A DNA stretch of 19,677 nt from Cytophagales bacterium (GTDB taxonomy: Bacteria > Bacteroidota > Bacteroidia > Cytophagales > Cyclobacteriaceae). The stretch covers positions 1 to 19,677 of the forward strand of contig JAJCYK010000280.1 of NCBI GenBank assembly GCA_029262935.1, written 5' to 3'. This document shows, piece after piece, positions 8,323 through 18,837 of this stretch (positions are counted from its first letter, which is position 1; each line of letters starts with the position of its first letter). The position numbers and the translations under genes were made by a program. The notes under the pieces are model-generated. The model did not search any database and was not told the origin of the DNA. It worked only from the letters and a program-made list of their open reading frames with translations.

Positions 8323-10638
8323 GTGCAATACATCCGATATTTATATTCCAGATTTTCTTCGTTTTACCAGCAAAATCACTGGTTTCGTATATTCTTAAGG
8401 TCATGCCTGGGACTAGGAGTGGTGGCGATCCTTGTGGTCGTAGTATTTTACTATGCAGTAGCTTGGGGTTCTTTTGGTAAAATACCTGACCGTGAATCAA
8501 TTCAGAGTTATCAGAACGATACCGCTTCGGAAGTGTACTCAGTGGATAGTGTTTTGATTGGAAAATACTTCTTACAAGAGCGCACCAATGTTGCTTTTGA
8601 GGACCTACCCAATCATTTGATTGAAGCTCTCATTGCCACTGAAGATGTGCGTTTCTACCAACATCAGGGCGTTGACTACAGAAGTTTATTTAGGGTAGCT
8701 ATTAAATCACTACTACTTCAAGATCAAAGCTCCGGGGGGGGAAGTACTATTACTCAACAATTAGCAAAAAACATATTTCCTCGTGAAGGTACGGGCTCTT
8801 TTAATTTAGCAATTAATAAAGTAAAAGAAATGATCGTTGCAAGGCGGATAGAGGAGGTTTATACTAAATCAGAAATCTTAGCTTTGTATTTTAATACTGT
8901 GAGTTTTGGCTATAACGCCTTTGGTATAGAAACTGCATCAAAACGATTTTTTAACAAACCCCCAAATTTACTCACCATTCAAGAGTCAGCAGTGCTGGTA
9001 GGGATGTTAAAAGCAACCACCCTTTATAACCCTTACCGCAACCCAAAAAGAGCGGAAACAAGGAGAAATCTTGTATTTCATCAGATGATGAAATACCAAT
9101 TTCTGAATACCGCCAATTTTGATTCCCTCAAAACCTTGCCCATGGAGATCAACTTTACTTCTACTACCCACAATGAAGGGACAGCCACATATTTTAGAGA
9201 ATATTTGCGGGCGGAAATTCAAAAATGGGCTAAAGAACAAACGACCGAAGAGGGCGATCCAGTGAACCTGTATACGGACGGTTTGAAAATCTACACTACC
9301 ATCCATTCTAAAATGCAACAGTATGCTGAAGAATCAGTCGAACAGCACATGACTGAGCTACAGCAAGTGTTTTACAAACATTGGGGCAAAACCCGGCCCT
9401 GGCACAAAAACCCACGTACTTTACTTAATGCCATTCGCAAAACCCCCAGGTATCAAAACCTAAAATCTCAAGGCATGCAAGAGTCTGAGATTCAAGAAAT
9501 ATTTAAAAAGCCCTATACCATGAAAGTGTTTACCTGGGAAGGCGAAAAAGAAATGGAATTATCACCCTTAGATTCCATTAGACACTATCTGTATTTTTTA
9601 AACGCCGGCTTTATGGCAATGGATCCGCAGAATGGCGCAGTCCGAGCTTGGGTTGGGGGTATTAATCACAAGTACTTTAAATACGATCATGTAAACGTCA
9701 ATACCAAAAGGCAGGTAGGTTCGGTCTTCAAGCCCATTGTTTATGCAGCTGCTTTGGAGAGCGGCGTAAAGCCTTGTGACTTTGTTAGCTCCAAACGCAT
9801 CACCTATACCAATTTCGATGACTGGTCTCCTGGAAATGCCGACGACAATTACCAAGGATATTACTCTGTCAAAGGAGCACTAGCACAGTCGGTAAATACA
9901 GTTTCCGTCAAAGTGCTTAAGCGTACCAGCATAAGTCGTGCGATAGAAATGGCACGTATTATGGGAATTTCCAATGAAATACCAGAAGTGCCGTCAATTG
10001 CATTAGGAACTCCAAACATTTCACTCTTTGAAATGGTTGGAGCTTTTGGGTCTTTTGCCAACCAAGGAAATAGCGTAAAGCCAAGATACCTAAGCAAGAT
10101 TGTGAATCAGCAGGGAAATGTATTGGCGGATTTCGAAGTTAAAGTTACTTCCCAAAAAGCGATGTCAGCGAATACCGCTACCATGATGTTGCATATGATG
10201 AAAAACGTAGTGGACAAAGGCACAGCCCAACGTTTAAGAAGTGTTTACAAATTAAAAAATGATATAGCTGGAAAAACAGGTACTACCCAAAGTCATGCCG
10301 ATGGATGGTTCATTGGGGTTACCCCCAAACTTGTTGCTGGAGCTTGGGTGGGTAGCGACGATCCAAACATCCATTTCAGGACCATTACTTACGGGCAAGG
10401 CGCAGCCATGGCTTTACCCATTTGGGCTTTATTTATGCAACGAGTAAATGCAGACAAAGAATTTGATGTAATCCGTAAATCCAAATTTCCTAGCCCCTCA
10501 AGCACGCAACAACAGGCAATGGATTGTGTGGATTATAAAGAAAGCAGAGATTTTCACTATCTTTTTCAACAGATCTTGGGAAATAGAAAAAAACGTCCGT
10601 TAAAACGAAAACAACGGAAACGTAACAGAAGATATTAG
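8323..10638 (+). CDS. mrcA: Class A penicillin-binding protein (PBP1A-type, bifunctional)
   Basis: Inner-membrane peptidoglycan synthase with a periplasmic glycosyltransferase (GT51) and a transpeptidase domain, 771 aa. One TM helix (about 27-47) follows a short cytoplasmic N-terminus. The GT51 motifs are EDVRFYQHQG with Glu107, GGGSTITQQLAKN, and KVKEMIVARRIEE with the second Glu near 169. The transpeptidase motifs are SVFK with nucleophile Ser467, SVN at Ser523-Asn525, and KTGT at Lys651-Thr654. Both activities look intact. The start is GTG at 8323: an in-frame TAA lies at 8308-8310 and no ATG occurs before the TM helix. The C-terminus is a very basic tail (RKKRPLKRKQRKRNRRY). A run of eight G (8734-8741) encodes part of the GGGS motif. 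The stop overlaps that of the convergent gene. Confidence 0.95.
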   Translation: MQYIRYLYSRFSSFYQQNHWFRIFLRSCLGLGVVAILVVVVFYYAVAWGSFGKIPDRESIQSYQNDTASEVYSVDSVLIGKYFLQERTNVAFEDLPNHLIEALIATEDVRFYQHQGVDYRSLFRVAIKSLLLQDQSSGGGSTITQQLAKNIFPREGTGSFNLAINKVKEMIVARRIEEVYTKSEILALYFNTVSFGYNAFGIETASKRFFNKPPNLLTIQESAVLVGMLKATTLYNPYRNPKRAETRRNLVFHQMMKYQFLNTANFDSLKTLPMEINFTSTTHNEGTATYFREYLRAEIQKWAKEQTTEEGDPVNLYTDGLKIYTTIHSKMQQYAEESVEQHMTELQQVFYKHWGKTRPWHKNPRTLLNAIRKTPRYQNLKSQGMQESEIQEIFKKPYTMKVFTWEGEKEMELSPLDSIRHYLYFLNAGFMAMDPQNGAVRAWVGGINHKYFKYDHVNVNTKRQVGSVFKPIVYAAALESGVKPCDFVSSKRITYTNFDDWSPGNADDNYQGYYSVKGALAQSVNTVSVKVLKRTSISRAIEMARIMGISNEIPEVPSIALGTPNISLFEMVGAFGSFANQGNSVKPRYLSKIVNQQGNVLADFEVKVTSQKAMSANTATMMLHMMKNVVDKGTAQRLRSVYKLKNDIAGKTGTTQSHADGWFIGVTPKLVAGAWVGSDDPNIHFRTITYGQGAAMALPIWALFMQRVNADKEFDVIRKSKFPSPSSTQQQAMDCVDYKESRDFHYLFQQILGNRKKRPLKRKQRKRNRRY

Positions 10639-11108
10639 AAAGGCAGTTGATATCGCATCCCGGCATTAACGAACCACTGCCCGGTGGTACCAGTCACATA
10701 TTTAAATTCCGTAAAGGGCTGCAGGCTGTTTAAATCCAAAAAGCCCCCAACTCCTAAGTTTAGACCACCATAAGTGCCATAGGATATCAGATCACTGGCC
10801 TCTTGGATTTCCGTTTTGAATAAATGAATGCCAGTAAACACATAGGGTACCAACACTAAGTCCCAAGGAACCTCATAGTTAAAATCGATATTAATGACAC
10901 TAGGTTGCATGGCAATCTGTTCTTCAAAGAAGGTGGCATATGCCACCCTCACACCCCAGTGTCTAAATTGGTAACCGAGTTGAACTTGAGCACCCCATTG
11001 GTTGAGGTCAGTACCATAGGTGGCACTTGCCCCTAAATTGGCTTGCGCAGATAGTTGTAGGCTAAGTAATCCTATGACTAAGCTTAGTAGTGATTTCTTC
11101 ATTAACAT
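10635..11108 (-). CDS. Small outer-membrane beta-barrel protein
   Basis: 157 aa with a signal peptide (MKKSLLSLVIGLLSLQLSA, predicted cut before QAN). The mature part of about 135 aa consists of alternating polar/hydrophobic, aromatic- and glycine-rich strands (for example GAQVQLGYQF, WGVRVAYAT, LVPYVFTGIHL, GGLNLGVGGFL) and ends in Phe, the usual terminal residue recognised for barrel assembly. The size would suit an eight-strand barrel like OmpX/OmpW, but I cannot assign a family. The second Met (start at 11102, giving MKK) is an equally good or better start. It is last in the four-gene exported cluster, 32 bases after the pseudocaspase gene, so it may be its outer-membrane partner. Its TAA overlaps the PBP stop on the other strand. 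Confidence 0.75.
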   Translation of the reverse strand: MLMKKSLLSLVIGLLSLQLSAQANLGASATYGTDLNQWGAQVQLGYQFRHWGVRVAYATFFEEQIAMQPSVINIDFNYEVPWDLVLVPYVFTGIHLFKTEIQEASDLISYGTYGGLNLGVGGFLDLNSLQPFTEFKYVTGTTGQWFVNAGMRYQLPF

Positions 11109-11140: not shown

Positions 11141-12349
11141 TTAACGACCCTCCCTAGGCTGAAAAGTAAATCTGTTACCAGAATTATGATCCCCAAACTC
11201 TACATATATCGGTTTGGGATGCAACTTTTCGAATTCTTCGATTAATTCTAGCCAACTGAACTGATGACTCACCGGCTTGTTCATATAGGAAATAAATGCT
11301 TTGCTTAGAGGGGATCCATCCCCATAGCTAGCATTCCATTTATAGTCCTCCATTCCAGATAACAAACCGATCCTAGTGGTTCCAGTACGGTCTACTTGTG
11401 AAGGTCCAGGAGCGCCTTTTTTGACTATCAAAGGATGGTTCCTGGCCAAAGGTAGTGCCTCACCTCTGCCTTTAACAGCGTCCATCAGCATAAAGATATG
11501 AGGAACAGGTATGTTGTTCAATATTGACTGCAATACTTCATAGGAAAGGTAAGTAACATTTACCTTTTCTTCCTTTATACTATTTTTACATACTAAATGA
11601 CCCGTGCCCTGCTCAACATCATAAAACCCGTATCCAGCAAAGTAAACTAACAGTTGATCGTGAGGCCCGTAGTCCTTTTTGGCATATTCTTGAAGTTTAT
11701 CCAAAATATCAAAAGTGGTGGCATCACGTACCAAATCGATCTGAAACCCTTTGAATTCCAACTCGCGGGCGAGTCTCTCTGCGTCCCGAATAGGTCCATT
11801 TAAGTTGCTCCAGGCATTGTACTCATCAATACCAATTATTAAAGCGTAGTCTTTCCGTTGCGAGGGCTTTACCTGTACTTCAAGTTTACGTTTGTGCTGT
11901 AATGCTCCAAGTTCATTCTGAACCACCAAAACAATGTTGTTAGCCCCTTCTGCCAATACGATTGGTTGTTCAATCCAAGCATCAAATAGGTAGCCGGACG
12001 GTTGTGCGGGATCCTCGAAGCTATCGTAAGTTTTAATAATCTCGTCATTCAGTATAACTGTTACTTTTACTAAAGGAGATTGGGAGTTGATTCCTAATTT
12101 TAAGTTGGTGAATTCTTCCCTAAGGATTTCTTGATCATCGCTTGGATAAATCCACTTGATGGTAGGCTTTAGGGATTTTTCAACAGCTTTAGGATTATTT
12201 ACTTTTACATTTATACTAGTGCTTTTCCCAGATATCGTCTGTGCCAGAGAGGGCAAAGAAACTAAGCCTAGCAAACAAATAAAAATGCCAGATATTAATT
12301 TTGAAAAATTATTGTTTAACCACACGTTGGTAAATTGACTTTTGTCCAA
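11141..12349 (-). CDS. Secreted caspase-fold protein lacking the catalytic dyad (pseudocaspase)
   Basis: 402 aa. It has a signal peptide (hydrophobic core about 17-36, predicted cut before Gln37), an Ig-like beta domain (about 62-160, starting PTIKWIYPS), and then a peptidase C14/caspase p20 fold (about 165-300): YALIIGIDEYN, LNGPIRDAERLARELEFKGF, DQLLVYFAGYGFYD. A p10-like end follows (TRIGLLSGMEDY, GSPLSKAFISYM, and GNRFTFQP near the terminus). In active family members the two key motifs read GHG and D-x-C-x-SG. Here they are G-Tyr240-G and Asp290-Ala-Val292-Lys-Gly, so both catalytic His and Cys are missing while the fold motifs stay in frame. A scaffold or binding role is more likely than proteolysis. 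The start is uncertain: TTG at 12349 (after GGAGG) overlaps the adhesin gene by 41 bases; GTG at 12325 is an alternative. Confidence 0.82.
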   Translation of the reverse strand: MDKSQFTNVWLNNNFSKLISGIFICLLGLVSLPSLAQTISGKSTSINVKVNNPKAVEKSLKPTIKWIYPSDDQEILREEFTNLKLGINSQSPLVKVTVILNDEIIKTYDSFEDPAQPSGYLFDAWIEQPIVLAEGANNIVLVVQNELGALQHKRKLEVQVKPSQRKDYALIIGIDEYNAWSNLNGPIRDAERLARELEFKGFQIDLVRDATTFDILDKLQEYAKKDYGPHDQLLVYFAGYGFYDVEQGTGHLVCKNSIKEEKVNVTYLSYEVLQSILNNIPVPHIFMLMDAVKGRGEALPLARNHPLIVKKGAPGPSQVDRTGTTRIGLLSGMEDYKWNASYGDGSPLSKAFISYMNKPVSHQFSWLELIEEFEKLHPKPIYVEFGDHNSGNRFTFQPREGR

Positions 12350-12581
12350 ATACCTCCATTCTCAGAAGATATACTCCATTAGAAACAGCATTTCCGGATG
12401 AATTTGTTCCATCCCACTGCACTTTGTAAAATCCGGCATTTTGCCGGCCTTGTACCAGAACCTTAATTCTGCGTCCCCTTAAATCATAAACCGCCAAATT
12501 TACATCTTTAGATGCTTCTAAATCTGGCACCGAATATTCCACCTGCAATATATCAAAGAATGGATTAGGATACACTGCTGA
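12309..12581 (-). other. T9SS type A C-terminal sorting domain region
   Basis: This encodes the last 90 residues of the giant protein. It has the standard features of the T9SS C-terminal domain: YPNPF at its start, a central VYDLRGRRI beta strand, a Gly-Asn-rich turn (SSGNAVSNG), YLLRM, and a short basic end (RVVKQ). It is known as the secretion and anchoring signal in Bacteroidota. Confidence 0.88.
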
Positions 12582-15500
12582 TAAGCTCACATTTAAAGGA
12601 ATTAGCTGTTCTTCCAGGTAACTTGGCGATCCGTAAATCACCTGGAAAGTGTTAACTCCTGAATTGTCGAAAGAATATCCCGTAACGGATCTCATATCAA
12701 TTACGCGTTCCAAATCCTTGTGATACAGCCACATTTCCTGGTTCAATGGTATATCCATCACTCCTCCCCAATTTAGGTCTATAGTTGGGTGGTCTATATT
12801 AGAATCTACGGTAAAATCCCAGGTTTGGTTGCCTACTACTGGTACTATGTCGCGACTGAAGTTTGGTGCAAAATACTCCGAGTGCTTGAAGCTCAAATCC
12901 AAGTACTTAATAAATCTTGGTGGTCTAATTCGGTCAAAAATATCTTTGCTATTTTGTGCTGCGTACCGCATCCCAAATCCACCTAAATTATTAGAAAAAC
13001 TGTCAGCTCTTAGCTCGAATGAAACTACCCATTCCCCATCTTCCATAGTGGAAGGCCCGTTTACAGCATGTGTCCTACCTCCCTGAATAGCAGGGTCTTT
13101 TTCTAATGGCACCACTAGTGTAGCCAACTGCTCGGAAAATACAAATGCGCCTCCCAAGGTATTTAGTACATCAGATTCCCGGTAACCCCTTTCATAAGTG
13201 GTCAGCTGATTATCTACTCCTTCAATAATGGGATTGGATCCTAAAACGTCCGTCCATGATAAGTTAAAGGTGTACGGGTTGCCTATCAAATTCCACCCTG
13301 GTACTAATGAGTATTCATAATCAGCATCGTTTAACAATTCTGTAGTGCCGGTACCCGTGTCCACATCTGTAGGATCTTTAACAATAAGCCAATAACCCTG
13401 CCCTCGATTGATATTTGTCAGTCCAGATTGATATTCTATAACGCCTGTGCCACTATGTGAGAAAAGACGCCAGTTAGTTTGATCGTAACTACCCAAGTCG
13501 TCCTCGAAGGTATTGACGATACTGGACTGATCTAAATCCAAAGGCACTGAAACCAGGTTGTAACTATTTACATCCTCCCCGAAAACCAAGGACTCAAAAT
13601 CCAAGCCAGTATCAGGGTACTGAATGTAAGTAACCCCTAGCAAGTTGGCTGAATTTCCTGCTGCATCATTAGCTATGAATTCGTATTCGAAGCCCATTTC
13701 GTCAAACACTTCCTCGGTTACCGTGATGGCGAAATTATTAGAAGTAGAGGTTAAATCTCTCGTAACCCACCCATCCTTAGGAGCAGTGAGGCTTTTAAAA
13801 ATAAACAGTACCCGTTCTACCGCAAGGTCTCCTCCAATCTCTACGCTATAGGTCACACTTCCAGAATTGGCTATATGTAATCTTGGCAATGCTGAAGCTG
13901 TTATTGAAATGGGTTCGATGTCCGGATCTCGGATGGGTCCAATAGAGGCACTTTGTACCGGTCTACCCGGTGAAACTCCAGTTAGAGCTGCCGGGGTAAC
14001 TTCAAAAATGATACTTGTTCCTAAATCGTCCACTGTTAATCGATAGCTCTGATCCGTTGCTCCTACTATGGCCACTCCATCTCGTAACCAACGATACGTA
14101 GAGTTTCCTTCTGGGTCCATATCAGCATCAACATATGTATAGATGCCATTCAATTGCTGTCCCACTTCGGAGGTCCCTGCCACACTTATTGATGTGGCTA
14201 TGGGTACTGAATTAGCTGCAACAACCGGGCCAATCGGGGCACTTTGAACGGCGCTGCCCATGGATGCGCCTGAAGTTGCAATTGGCACTACTTCAAATAT
14301 CAATGTGGCACCTAAGTCTAAAACCGAAATAGTATAGGTTAGCGCTGTCTCACCGGGAATTGCGGTGTTATCTCTTAACCACCTATAGGTGCTGACTCCT
14401 TCTGGGTCACTATCCGCATCGTTGAATGTATATATGCCAGTGAGTACCTGACCAACTTCTGGGGACCCGCTAATACTTACATCTGTGGCAGACGGAATCG
14501 TATTGGCGGCACCAATAGGCCCTATTGCTGCACTCAATGCGGGGTTGCCTGGAGACACCCCTGAAATCGCTATTGGGGTAACTTCCAAGACAATAGTTGT
14601 ACCTTGATCTGCTGATTGTAGTGTATAGGTTAACCCAGTAGCTCCGGTAATGCTTGCCCCTTCTCTGAGCCATCTAAACGTGGTAGTCCCTTCAAGATCT
14701 CCATCGGAGTCACTATAAACATAACTCCCGGTCAAAGTAAATCCCACCTCGGTTGTACCAGTGATTTCCACCGAGTTCGCAACCGGGGGAGTATTTGCCG
14801 GCAATACAGGGCCGACTGCGGAGCTTTGAGAAGGGCTACCTGGAGAATCCCCTGACAAGGCTACTGGGAGTACTTCAAAACTAATATTCGATGCTTCGTC
14901 CTCAAGCTGTAAGGTATAGGTTTGGGCCGTAGCACTTCCTATGGGAATGCCATCTCTAAGCCAACGAAATGTTGAGGCTCCCTCCAAATCTCCATCCACA
15001 TCGCTGTAGGTGTAATTTCCTGTTAATACTTCGCCAACTTCCGGTGAACCAGATATGGACAAATCCGTTGCCACAGGTGGATCGTTTGACAACAAAATAG
15101 GGCCGACTTCAGCACTTTGCACAGGGCTTCCAGTGGTTGCTCCAGTCAGGGCTACTGGAGTGACCTCAAAAGCAACATTAGTGCCTACATCTGCTAGCAG
15201 TAATAAATAAGTTTGATTCGTGGCCCCAACAATCGCGGCACCGTCTCTAAGCCAACGAAATGTGGTGGTCCCCTCTAAATCGCCATCAGGATCTGTAAAA
15301 GTATAGCTCCCCGTGAGTAATTGACCATCCTCCGGTATTCCGTCGATGATAACTGCAGTGGCATTTGGAACCGAGTTTGCTGCACCGATGGGTCCTACAC
15401 CAGAACTTTCAACCGCGGTACCGTTCAAGACTCCTGACACGGCTACGGGTGTGACTTCAAAGGTAACAATGGCATTTTGGTCTGCAATCATCAAAGTATA

Positions 15501-18095
15501 GGTTGCACTGATTGCTCCCGCTATTGCTACCCCATCCCTAAGCCATCTAAACGTAGAGACGCCCTCCAGATCACCATCGGCATCGTCATATGAATAACTC
15601 CCTGTAAGTACCTGCCCTACTTCAGTGGTCCCGGAAATCAATAAACCTGTTGCGATAGGTGCCGTGTTTGCTGGAAGTACAGGCCCGATAGAAGTGCTTT
15701 GCACAGCTGTTCCTACAAGTACGCCTGTGGTAGCCACCGGGGTGACTTCAAATACCATTAAAGCTCCTTCATCGTCTACTATTTGAGTATACGTGATACT
15801 AGTGGCTCCTACAATCGCAGCACCGTCTCGTAACCAACGGAATGTTGATAGTCCCTCTAAATCTCCATCTGCATCAGCATAAACATAACTTCCTGTTAGC
15901 AGTTGGCCAACTTCAGGAATACCACTGATGTTTATAGTATTTGCGGTAGGAGCGGTATTGGCAGGTAAAATTGGTCCTACTGAAGTGCTTAATACCGCGG
16001 TACCAACCAGTACTCCAGTCTGTGCCACAGGGGTTACTTCGAAAATGATGTTTGTCCCTTCGTCGGATACCGTCAACGTATAGGTTTGGAAGGTAGCTCC
16101 TGCTATTTCTGCACCATCCCTAAGCCAACGAAATGTGGTGACTCCTTCAAGGTCACCTTCGCTATCGTCGTAAGTATAGTTTCCGGTAAGGGTTTGACCT
16201 ACCTCCAGGGTTCCGCCAATAGTGACGGCGGTGGCACTAGGTATGGTGTTGGCCGCACCTATGGGACCAACGCCAGGGCTTTCAACCACGGTTCCTATTA
16301 GTACACCGGTGAGGGCTACTGGAGTCACTTCAAAAGTAATTACAGTCGCTTCATCGTCAATGATTAAAGTGTAGGTGACAGTAGTCGCTCCGGCGATAGC
16401 AACCCCATCCCGCAACCAACGGAAGGTAGAAGTACCTTCTAAATCCCCATCTAAGTCAGCATAGGTATAACTTCCTGTTAGTACTTGTCCCACTTCGGTG
16501 GTCCCGGAAATGGACACGTTTGTAACTAATGGGCCGGTATTAGCAGGTAGCACAGGGCCTACTGCTGGGCTTTGGATCGCAAGGCCAGTTACAACTCCGG
16601 TGAGGGCTACTGGAGTCACTTCAAAAATAATATTTGTCCCATTATCAATACTTGCTAAAGTATAGTTCAAAGCGGTCGCACCTCCTATGGCTACGTCATC
16701 GCGCAACCAACGGAAGGTAGACGTGCCTTCTAAATCTCCATCTGCATCAGCATAAACATAACTGCCGGTGAGGATTTGCCCCACTTCTATCGTTCCAGTA
16801 ATGGCCACAGTGCTCGCCGTAGGAGCCGTATTGGCCGCAAGGATCGGTCCGACGCCAGGGCTTACTACAGCAATGCCCGTAAGCACACCGGTTAAGGCCA
16901 CTGGGGTCACTTCAAACGTGATGATGGCATCTTGATCGTCTATCAGCAAGGTGTAAGTAGTCCCAGTAGCTCCCACTATGGCTACATCATCGCGCAACCA
17001 ACGGAAAGTAGACGTGCCTTCTAAATCTCCATCGGCATCAGCATAAACATAACTGCCGGTGAGGATTTGCCCCACTTCGATCGTACCAGTAATGGCCACA
17101 GTGCTCGCAGTAGGAGCCGTATTCGCCGCAACGATCGGTCCGACACCAGAGCTTACCACAGCAGTACCGGTAACCACACCGGTTAAGGCCACTGGGGTCA
17201 CTTCAAACGTGATGATGGCATCTTGATCGTCTATGAGCAAGGTATAAGTAGTCCCAGTAGCTCCCACTATGGCTACATCATCGCGCAACCAACGGAAGGT
17301 AGAAGTACCTTCTAAATCTCCATCTGCATCAGCATAAACATAACTTCCGGTGAGGATTTGGCCCACTTCTATCGTTCCAGTAATGGCCACAGTGCTCGCT
17401 GTAGGAGCATCGTTAGTTATAGTTACAGTAATGGAAGAGGTAACGGTTATTAAGCTGGCATCAGTTACCGCGGCGTCAATGATGTGGGTTCCCACCGACA
17501 ACGTAGAAATGGTAACTAGAGCTCCCACTCCAAAATCTCCATCAATACTGGAGGTCCAAGTAATTTGATCAGTAAGGTCGCCATCTTCATCATCAGTAGC
17601 GGTACCGCTAAAATCAATTGATACGCCCTCACCAAAACTTGAAGCGTCTGCTGGGCCTAGTATAGTAACTTCCGGAGGAGTATCATTATCTTCTATTGTT
17701 ATGGTATGGATGGTATTCGTTCCTAAAGAGCCGCTACTAGGAACACCAAGAGTAATTATTACAGTCTCGTCTGCCTCTGTGTCAGTATCGTCTATTACGG
17801 TTACCGTAATGTCTCCGGAGGTAGCGCCTGCAATGATATTCAGTGGAGTAGTGGTAATGGTATAGTCATCTGTTGCACCTTCAATAGCGGTGCCAGTTAA
17901 GGTAAATGGAACTGTTACATCAACGGCCGCGGCGGCATCGAACTGCACCGTTACTGTAAACGTCCCTACAGCTTCAACATCAGATTGGGAAGTAGTTGTA
18001 AAGTCCACCACTTGCCCGTAGCTTGTAATACTGAGTAATCCAGCAATAAATATCAAGCCTATTTTTAGAAATTTTATGCTATCACTTGGGAACAT
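12309..18095 (-). CDS. Giant T9SS surface protein with Calx-beta and 12 Ig-like repeats
   Basis: 1928 aa, a predicted cell-surface or adhesin-like protein. Order: signal peptide (1-27, Gln28 at +1), Calx-beta domain (about 28-143, ending DNDTPPEV), one Ig/cadherin-like domain (about 144-229), and 12 tandem Ig-like repeats of exactly 97 aa (230-1393). A 445-aa region (1394-1838) containing the GWNLIGNPY motif common in Bacteroidota secreted proteins follows, then a type A T9SS sorting domain (about 1839-1928: YPNPF, LAVYDLRGRRIK, NGVYLLRM). The sorting domain predicts export across the outer membrane and attachment or release. Most repeats carry DxDGDLEG, which could bind Ca2+. The start is the ATG at 18095: it is 4 bases after the upstream stop and directly precedes the signal peptide. 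An in-frame extension to 18155 would overlap the upstream gene and spoil the leader. Confidence 0.9.
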   Translation of the reverse strand: MFPSDSIKFLKIGLIFIAGLLSITSYGQVVDFTTTSQSDVEAVGTFTVTVQFDAAAAVDVTVPFTLTGTAIEGATDDYTITTTPLNIIAGATSGDITVTVIDDTDTEADETVIITLGVPSSGSLGTNTIHTITIEDNDTPPEVTILGPADASSFGEGVSIDFSGTATDDEDGDLTDQITWTSSIDGDFGVGALVTISTLSVGTHIIDAAVTDASLITVTSSITVTITNDAPTASTVAITGTIEVGQILTGSYVYADADGDLEGTSTFRWLRDDVAIVGATGTTYTLLIDDQDAIITFEVTPVALTGVVTGTAVVSSGVGPIVAANTAPTASTVAITGTIEVGQILTGSYVYADADGDLEGTSTFRWLRDDVAIVGATGTTYTLLIDDQDAIITFEVTPVALTGVLTGIAVVSPGVGPILAANTAPTASTVAITGTIEVGQILTGSYVYADADGDLEGTSTFRWLRDDVAIGGATALNYTLASIDNGTNIIFEVTPVALTGVVTGLAIQSPAVGPVLPANTGPLVTNVSISGTTEVGQVLTGSYTYADLDGDLEGTSTFRWLRDGVAIAGATTVTYTLIIDDEATVITFEVTPVALTGVLIGTVVESPGVGPIGAANTIPSATAVTIGGTLEVGQTLTGNYTYDDSEGDLEGVTTFRWLRDGAEIAGATFQTYTLTVSDEGTNIIFEVTPVAQTGVLVGTAVLSTSVGPILPANTAPTANTINISGIPEVGQLLTGSYVYADADGDLEGLSTFRWLRDGAAIVGATSITYTQIVDDEGALMVFEVTPVATTGVLVGTAVQSTSIGPVLPANTAPIATGLLISGTTEVGQVLTGSYSYDDADGDLEGVSTFRWLRDGVAIAGAISATYTLMIADQNAIVTFEVTPVAVSGVLNGTAVESSGVGPIGAANSVPNATAVIIDGIPEDGQLLTGSYTFTDPDGDLEGTTTFRWLRDGAAIVGATNQTYLLLLADVGTNVAFEVTPVALTGATTGSPVQSAEVGPILLSNDPPVATDLSISGSPEVGEVLTGNYTYSDVDGDLEGASTFRWLRDGIPIGSATAQTYTLQLEDEASNISFEVLPVALSGDSPGSPSQSSAVGPVLPANTPPVANSVEITGTTEVGFTLTGSYVYSDSDGDLEGTTTFRWLREGASITGATGLTYTLQSADQGTTIVLEVTPIAISGVSPGNPALSAAIGPIGAANTIPSATDVSISGSPEVGQVLTGIYTFNDADSDPEGVSTYRWLRDNTAIPGETALTYTISVLDLGATLIFEVVPIATSGASMGSAVQSAPIGPVVAANSVPIATSISVAGTSEVGQQLNGIYTYVDADMDPEGNSTYRWLRDGVAIVGATDQSYRLTVDDLGTSIIFEVTPAALTGVSPGRPVQSASIGPIRDPDIEPISITASALPRLHIANSGSVTYSVEIGGDLAVERVLFIFKSLTAPKDGWVTRDLTSTSNNFAITVTEEVFDEMGFEYEFIANDAAGNSANLLGVTYIQYPDTGLDFESLVFGEDVNSYNLVSVPLDLDQSSIVNTFEDDLGSYDQTNWRLFSHSGTGVIEYQSGLTNINRGQGYWLIVKDPTDVDTGTGTTELLNDADYEYSLVPGWNLIGNPYTFNLSWTDVLGSNPIIEGVDNQLTTYERGYRESDVLNTLGGAFVFSEQLATLVVPLEKDPAIQGGRTHAVNGPSTMEDGEWVVSFELRADSFSNNLGGFGMRYAAQNSKDIFDRIRPPRFIKYLDLSFKHSEYFAPNFSRDIVPVVGNQTWDFTVDSNIDHPTIDLNWGGVMDIPLNQEMWLYHKDLERVIDMRSVTGYSFDNSGVNTFQVIYGSPSYLEEQLIPLNVSLSAVYPNPFFDILQVEYSVPDLEASKDVNLAVYDLRGRRIKVLVQGRQNAGFYKVQWDGTNSSGNAVSNGVYLLRMEVFGQKSIYQRVVKQ
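13917..17408 (-). repeat. Twelve tandem 291-bp coding repeats (97-aa Ig-like units)
   Basis: The units run without indels. R1 is 17408-17118, R2 17117-16827, R3 16826-16536, R4 16535-16245, R5 16244-15954, R6 15953-15663, R7 15662-15372, R8 15371-15081, R9 15080-14790, R10 14789-14499, R11 14498-14208 and R12 14207-13917. The consensus skeleton is: EVGQ-LTGSYxYxDxDGDLEG, S/T-TFRWLRDG, I-x-GAT, TYTL, FEVTPVALTG, and VGPI-AANT at the unit end. R1-R3 are near-identical. R11 and R12 are the most diverged (DPEG and TYRW in place of DLEG and TFRW). Confidence 0.95.
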
Positions 18096-18099
18096 TCGA

Positions 18100-18837
18100 T
18101 TAGTCTGGAGTGTCTGGAGGAGCTGGAAGTACTCTTGGTCCGCTAGAACCGCCACTTTCAGTTAATAATATCACCACTGGTACCGCTACGGCCAGGGGAA
18201 TAAACTTAACAAATAATGGTATTTTCCTATTTATAGAAAAATACCCACCTTGATCAAATTGCGTAGAAGATGTACTGCTAATCTTTACAGTATACCCTTG
18301 GCCGGGTTTGGTGTCAATAGGAATATTCCATAAGTACTCACCATCATTTTGTGTTCTGACGATGGTGCTTACTTTTCTATCATCCCGAAACAATTCTACA
18401 TCAACATATTCACTAGAATTGCTCCCAAGCCAGGTAATACTTTGTGGCGTGCCTCTCCTAATTGACCCTTCTGTTGGATAACTAACCTTTAAAGGCGAAA
18501 AGGTAAGTAGTGCCCTTACCTCAAAAGTGAGATCCCCATCAAAAGCCACTAATTCTTGACTAATATCCCAATCAATGGATTTATTTTTACCTGGCAGAAT
18601 ACCTTCTCCAACGTCTCCATTTACATAGAGTAGCGGCAATTCGTAGTTATTCGCAGAACTAAAAAGGTAGACCGTGAAGATCTGTCCAGGTAATTCTTCT
18701 AGTAAGTCATAAGTAATCCTTACCAGTTGGTCATCGATTTGACTTGCACCAATGCTGGTCACCTGCTGGGCATAGGTATCCACAGATACGGCCATTAGAA
18801 TCCCTATAAATATCTTTCTGAGTATATACTTCCCCAT
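18100..18837 (-). CDS. Exported membrane-anchored protein with Kre9/KNH-like domain
   Basis: 245 aa. The signal peptide (1-23, cut TYA|QQ) is followed by a conserved-looking beta domain (25-111: VTSIGASQIDDQLVRITYDL, NGDVGEGILPGKNKSIDWD, FDGDLTFEVRA). A second domain (112-203) resembles the Kre9/KNH or Ser-Thr-rich Ig-like family: P-x-EGSIRRGTPQSITWLGS, VDVELFRDD, GEYLWNIP, GYTVKISS, FSI. A hydrophobic segment (about 206-226) then leads to a short Gly/Ser/Pro tail. The N-terminal domain type is not one I can name. It is first in the four-gene run, 4 bases upstream of the giant T9SS protein, behind a candidate promoter. It may anchor or assist that protein at the membrane, which is inference from position. 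Confidence 0.78.
   Translation of the reverse strand: MGKYILRKIFIGILMAVSVDTYAQQVTSIGASQIDDQLVRITYDLLEELPGQIFTVYLFSSANNYELPLLYVNGDVGEGILPGKNKSIDWDISQELVAFDGDLTFEVRALLTFSPLKVSYPTEGSIRRGTPQSITWLGSNSSEYVDVELFRDDRKVSTIVRTQNDGEYLWNIPIDTKPGQGYTVKISSTSSTQFDQGGYFSINRKIPLFVKFIPLAVAVPVVILLTESGGSSGPRVLPAPPDTPD

Follow-up and report, generated by a model that had tools for sequence, protein, structure and literature searches.

Prokaryotic caspase homologues with a substituted catalytic dyad are already known. The available part of an early survey gives an intact dyad for 84% of bacterial metacaspases, with Tyr for His and Ser for Cys as the commonest substitutions (PMC3501461). A later survey, in its available part, counts 858 substituted proteins among 9,994 orthocaspases and reports such pseudo-forms as very rare in Bacteroidetes (10/1078; PMC6426788). 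As far as the same part goes, the pseudo-orthocaspases of Cyanobacteria and Alphaproteobacteria are p20-type C14 proteins with a substituted dyad that form conserved clades; YS and YN forms are named, and the cyanobacterial YS form carries a TAT-like leader (PMC6426788).

Here we describe an exported caspase-fold protein encoded on a 19,677-nucleotide stretch of contig DNA from a Cytophagales bacterium, referred to as the window. The protein resembles the pseudo-orthocaspases above in its p20-type C14 domain, its substituted dyad and its membership of a conserved clade. It differs from the forms named in the available part of that survey in that its clade has Val at the Cys site and mostly keeps the His, is hosted by Bacteroidota, places an Ig-like domain in front of the caspase fold and is tied to a type IX secretion (T9SS) cargo protein; the ten Bacteroidetes pseudo-forms counted there may include relatives of this clade (PMC6426788). 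What sets it apart is the Val site with a mostly kept His, the Ig front, the T9SS cassette and the intact counterparts that occupy the same cassette; among the matches listed in the open-licence PMC literature, no paper describes such cassettes or Val-type pseudocaspases in its title or abstract. At a probability of roughly 0.55, we read the protein as a pseudo-orthocaspase that arose from a T9SS-cassette caspase through a single loss of the catalytic Cys and that binds, without cutting, the giant protein encoded beside it.

Two other groups of proteins invite comparison. Gingipains and the PorU sortase, which belong to peptidase family C25 of clan CD, serve the T9SS as cargo or machinery and carry a C-terminal domain (CTD), whereas the window protein is a C14 protein that lacks both a CTD match and the catalytic Cys. 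Like the window protein, they bring a caspase-like fold into T9SS biology, and RgpB combines an Ig-like domain with the caspase-like fold, according to the available part of PMC4804311. At E 0.001 the window protein matched no C25 or T9SS_sortase profile, and neither TIGR04183 nor PF18962, the T9SS sorting-domain profiles, matched it. MALT1 paracaspase, an active, intracellular enzyme, also joins a caspase to an Ig domain (PDB entry titles read 'caspase-IG3'); going by entry names, its Ig domain follows the caspase, whereas that of the window protein precedes it.

An exported caspase-fold protein with a replaced dyad

The features of the window protein and its two cassette neighbours are collected in Table 1. 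The protein belongs to the Peptidase_C14/caspase-fold superfamily (PF00656), since its profile match exceeds the curated cut-off and its AF2 model adopts a caspase fold. When the model was searched against the PDB, the best match to the caspase part was MALT1; the N-terminal part received no reported match, but as most matches began at about residue 160 this carries no information on that part. It fell short of the cut-off for the EACC1-associated caspases (NF047832), at 42.7 bits versus 140. Active C14 peptidases are recognised by a His-Cys dyad in the motifs GHG and D-x-C and by a p10 substrate-binding loop (TSGGK-x-YV-x-DG in relatives of the window protein), the role of the loop being that assigned to it in caspases in general. 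The window protein lacks both the dyad and the loop, and is predicted to have no peptidase activity. With p20 homology and a replaced dyad residue, it fits the definition of a pseudo-orthocaspase given in the available part of PMC6426788.

The preliminary description had reported replacement of both dyad residues within a retained caspase fold, an observation that we confirm. Its reading of this as genuine loss of the peptidase dyad in a protein still selected for its fold is borne out by the orthologues described below, and its assignment of the protein as secreted agrees with an export leader that we read by eye. The protein-collection version of the sequence (P0002) begins eight residues later than the TTG start used here.

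Table 1. Coordinates of the caspase-fold protein, its parts and its cassette neighbours in the window.
Feature	Position	Strand	Basis
Exported caspase-fold protein (pseudo-orthocaspase), 402 aa from TTG start	11141..12349	-	ORF, Pfam C14, AF2/PDB, orthologues
N-terminal export signal, ~residues 1-36, hydrophobic run ending SLPSLAQ	12242..12349	-	By eye, with predicted helix 7-31
N-terminal Ig-like beta sandwich, ~residues 60-160	11870..12172	-	Seven strands 63-158 in model; Ig call by eye
Caspase fold, residues 163-402	11144..11863	-	Pfam C14, AF2 model, PDB matches
Tyr240, catalytic His position (GYG)	11630..11632	-	Sequence and alignment
Val292, catalytic Cys position (DAV)	11474..11476	-	Sequence and alignment
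Cys254, sole mature-protein cysteine, invariant in clade (26/26)	11588..11590	-	Alignment
His388, invariant in clade (26/26)	11186..11188	-	Alignment
Giant T9SS cargo, 1948 aa: Calx-beta, long Ig_AIR9 (A9) run, constant C-terminal module	12309..18155	-	ORF, profile matches
Constant ~510-aa C-terminal module of giant, T9SS sorting domain at end	12309..13922	-	Profile and homologue matches
Small exported protein, 245 aa, Kre9/KNH-type Ig-like domain, first cassette gene	18100..18837	-	PF10342, 1.2e-6

The nucleophile was lost once and the His later, in part

Searches of a protein collection and of genomes yielded 26 distinct orthologues, the window protein included. At the Cys292 site, 25 of these have Val and one has Ala, and Cys is found in none; the His240 site holds His in 19, Tyr in five and Gln in two. 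A comparison group of 67 relatives was chosen for having the catalytic Cys, and all 67 also have the His. A further set comprised 76 hits at 73 loci: both sites are visible in 71 hits, every one of which is His/Cys, and the remaining five are fragments that do not show both. Before these counts were made, we dropped L070-L074 (same content as the G001, G202, G168, G047 and G246 contigs), P0002 (the window protein itself), P0010 and P0026 (regarded as duplicates of the G202 and G246 copies) and three distant C14 proteins, L124|6, P0019 (His/Ser) and P0020 (His/Cys); the short P0008 was left out of the domain identities only.

In a quick tree of 93 rows, built from an alignment that kept the catalytic columns, a single branch (SH-aLRT 100) separates the 26 orthologues from the 67 Cys-bearing relatives. 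The tree requires one state change for the Cys, independent of rooting, and three for the His. Thus, as read from the alignment and this tree, the Cys was lost first and once, and the His changed afterwards in some lines. When we attempted to root the clade with more distant caspases, in a second quick tree that likewise kept the catalytic columns, it fell among the cassette caspases; because support was weak and long branches met, this nesting is not claimed. The earlier supposition that both dyad members were lost jointly is not supported, as the Cys changed once clade-wide and the His separately, in only 7/26. The preliminary description had also reckoned with close orthologues that keep both GHG and D-x-C: GHG is kept in 19/26, D-x-C in 0/26. 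Tyr240 is ruled out as a signature residue, given the His and Gln found at its site. Outside the tree, P0019, a distant 529-aa C14 protein, carries a His/Ser dyad (DVS), in what looks like an independent nucleophile change; it is the one aligned row apart from the clade with a residue other than Cys at the nucleophile site.

Constraint has shifted within the protein

The dyad-intact cassette caspases of the same family (L036, L037, L039 and others) share with the window protein the Ig-like N-terminus followed by C14, the export leader and the place in the cassette. They differ in keeping GHG, D-x-CFGGTFD and TSGGK-x-YV-x-DG, and in having a fast Ig domain and a slow p10, unlike the clade. We took the columns whose conservation among intact relatives reaches 90% and scored each as kept if at least half of the clade retains it; by this measure the clade keeps 7/8 columns in the Ig domain, 29/36 in p20 and only 14/41 over residues 292-398. 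Both the CFGGTFD loop and TSGGK-x-YV-x-DG, the motif of p10, are eroded, which does not bear out the earlier statement that p10-like landmarks were preserved. Domain identities were compared between pairs matched at an overall identity of 40-60%; in the nucleophile-less clade (139 pairs) they were 0.49 for Ig, 0.56 for p20 and 0.39 for p10, versus 0.26, 0.58 and 0.58 in the intact group (1780 pairs), values that serve as description and not as a test since the pairs are not independent. The Ig domain is far more conserved inside the clade than among intact relatives. Several residues are invariant in the clade yet rare or absent at the matching site of the intact group, among them three of the Ig domain (Tyr120, Trp125, His152) as well as Cys254 and His388. 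Judged by this conservation, constraint in the nucleophile-less clade has passed to the Ig domain. At the level of sequence, then, the clade has had its catalytic and p10 loops eroded and has kept p20, the Ig domain and its gene partnership, a pattern that points to a caspase fold retained for a job other than cutting.

Erosion of the dyad, the catalytic loop and the p10 substrate loop could also mark a decaying relic heading for loss, and, of the five genomes of genus g47, one that is 87% complete has no copy. We find this hardly credible, as no broken frame was seen among the 26 orthologues, 108 columns reach a conservation of 92% or more across the clade, and p20 identity is close to that of the intact relatives. 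Synonymous sites are saturated, dS being undefined in 57/60 comparisons, so only dN was used and no dN/dS ratios; the low dN of p20 (0.12-0.38) against saturated dS fits purifying selection.

A lone cysteine beside the His loop

All 26 orthologues have Cys254, and 25 of them have no other cysteine in the mature protein. Cys254 lies two residues after the hairpin that follows the His loop: in the model, strands 241-244 and 249-252 come after the GxG loop, and if the two form a hairpin, residue 254 would be expected opposite residues 239/240. This arrangement, together with the His kept in 19/26, would suit a protein that is still an enzyme, or is redox-active, and uses the lone Cys254 in place of Cys292. 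We regard such a relocated thiol as decidedly unlikely. The catalytic-position His is gone from seven of the 26 orthologues, the window protein among them, so there can be no general Cys254-His240 pair, and the p10 substrate loop is gone in the clade. Cys254 also occurs in 9/67 dyad-intact relatives, and hence is no nucleophile substitute in those. The invariant His388 sits, by sequence, near the C-terminal strand and outside the catalytic loop; in the 67 intact relatives its site holds Asn, Asp or Glu and His in 0/67. Cys254 and His388, both invariant in the clade, are a candidate new dyad, yet Cys254 extends to the nine intact relatives just mentioned. As to the alternative dyad with which the preliminary description had reckoned, a Cys in the old pocket is thus conceivable, Cys254 being the candidate.

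Distribution of the nucleophile-less form

The nucleophile-less form was found in 6/7 genomes of two genera, G001 sharing its genus with the window genome. The clade records are metagenome-assembled genomes labelled Cyclobacteriaceae, Flammeovirgaceae and Bacteroidia. Among 395 sampled genomes of the phylum, the form had no match at E 1e-80 besides the window, and a first scan of genome contigs with a single protein as query gave no relative. The query for intact loci was a profile built from the nucleophile-less clade; it located them in 103/390 sampled genomes of the family, and so they represent nearest relatives and not all C14 proteins. PorU scored above cut-off in 5/6 clade genomes, the sixth having fragments only.

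Pseudoproteases frequently act as decoys or regulators, as FLIP-type pseudocaspases do for active caspases, and the window protein might play this part towards an active caspase of the same cell. We consider this very improbable. Each of the six clade genomes has one match at E 1e-40, which is the nucleophile-less form, and an intact cassette caspase accompanies it in 0/6. No other C14 protein was found in G047 (a draft given as 100% complete) and no other C14 domain in the incomplete genomes G001, G202 and G246; G168 and the window's genome, G000, have one further C14 protein each, which could in principle be a partner. That of G000 (contig C657, L001, 1-2289, minus strand) has its caspase domain from the start and an intact dyad (SGHGCQ, VDACHSG), and is not of the cassette type. 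Change in place, from protease to binder, fits the facts better than a decoy or a relic.

A three-gene cassette with a giant T9SS cargo

The caspase gene is the third of a cassette in which a small Kre9/KNH-type protein, with a C-terminal hydrophobic segment discerned by eye, is followed by the giant T9SS cargo and the exported caspase. The giant gene lies directly upstream of the caspase gene and overlaps its longest ORF by 41 bases. As the preliminary description had proposed, this neighbour is a T9SS protein: its sorting domain matches TIGR04183 at 26.8 bits (cut-off 23), while the 22.6 bits of PF18962 fall short of the 27 required. The giant also matches the ZirU family NF040485 above cut-off, in 12 stretches. 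Within its Ig_AIR9 run, a 291-base tandem repeat (window 16685-17408, 2.5 copies, 93% match) is probably a recent repeat expansion.

A homologue of the giant's tail is encoded directly upstream of the caspase at 6/6 nucleophile-less loci and 56/64 intact loci; two of the eight intact loci that lack it there are at a contig edge. In another 72 intact loci, most of them with lower scores, the giant is directly upstream in 42, and four of the other 30 are at an edge, so the pairing is common and not universal. These counts do not support the idea that a T9SS neighbour is peculiar to the inactive protein. Where the giant is complete within the region, a Kre9-type gene directly precedes it at 2/2 nucleophile-less and 30/39 intact loci. 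The bodies of the giants vary, with FG-GAP and Vps10-type repeats (L036, L037), Kelch and fn3 (L039) or A9 repeats (window). Their C-terminal module is near full length in 48/59 hits beside intact caspases and 6/6 in the clade, duplicates set aside, and 36/37 of its conserved columns are kept in the nucleophile-less clade. Its AF2 model has a mean pLDDT of 60.2 and is poor in the middle. Comparison of six clade modules with 51 from intact loci revealed no conserved Lys or Arg lost with the protease, such as a lost cleavage site would leave; all five K/R columns are kept, which gives no sign that intact caspases cut the module. One column of the module switches: giant residue 1812 is Asp in 51/51 modules beside intact caspases, and His in five and Asn in one of the six in the clade.

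Gene adjacency is the sole link between caspase and giant, and the giant is missing directly upstream at 8/64 and 30/72 intact loci; the two could be mere neighbours, the caspase-fold protein having a periplasmic function of its own (e.g. sensing or scaffolding) and sharing only the operon. This we think rather unlikely, as the order and spacing of the pair are kept at all six clade loci, in two genera, and in most of the nearest intact relatives, while the C-module is common to the giants compared, whose bodies vary. In addition, the longest ORFs of giant and caspase overlap by 17 to 50 bases at 5/6 clade loci, to an extent that depends on the choice of start.

Our preferred reading is that of a binder derived from a protease. 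An ancestral cassette caspase would have lost its catalytic Cys once and its His later and partially. The Sec pathway would deliver the caspase-fold protein, which itself carries no T9SS tail, to the periplasm, where, as the adjacency of the genes suggests, it may bind the giant encoded just upstream. Contact would most likely be made with the constant C-terminal module of the giant, through the Ig domain and the caspase surface, and the protein might then assist the export or anchoring of the giant as a chaperone, retainer or docking factor that does not cut. At the step where the nucleophile-less form only binds, the dyad-intact relatives would cut. Against a simple version of this account stand the fully kept K/R columns and the many intact members without a giant. 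Going further, and tentatively, the cassette could be an undescribed cargo-handling system of this Bacteroidota family in which the caspase fold, and not just its peptidase activity, is the working part, one lineage having dropped proteolysis and kept the fold as a cargo binder. One operon and one cargo module, with and without the caspase nucleophile, amount to a natural experiment, one in which the roles of prokaryotic caspase folds that depend on cutting can be told apart from those that need binding alone. The cassette also ties C14 caspases, which are mostly considered in connection with cell death and stress, to the export of surface proteins.

Variation at and around the locus

A penicillin-binding protein homologue is encoded on the opposite strand 1-35 bases past the caspase gene in G047, G168, G246 and G202, and 502 bases past it in the window, which makes the locus syntenic within the clade. 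In the window, a gene for a 157-aa protein with an export-type N-terminus (10635-11108, minus strand) lies between the two; this protein has no Pfam match, and weak homologues (E about 1e-4) are found elsewhere in other genomes. The gap between the caspase and penicillin-binding protein genes is only 1-6 bases in G047, G168 and G246. Among intact loci, L037 (G034) and L146 (G395) each hold a tandem pair of cassettes, each cassette with its own intact caspase. At L169 (G012, contig C16) an intact-dyad, cassette-type caspase lies in a 1053-aa open frame and is possibly a fusion. At the related intact-dyad loci L106, L107, L137 and L141, the Kre9-type gene and the caspase gene flank a gene for a protein of ~390 aa in place of the giant, an arrangement that is a short version of the cassette.
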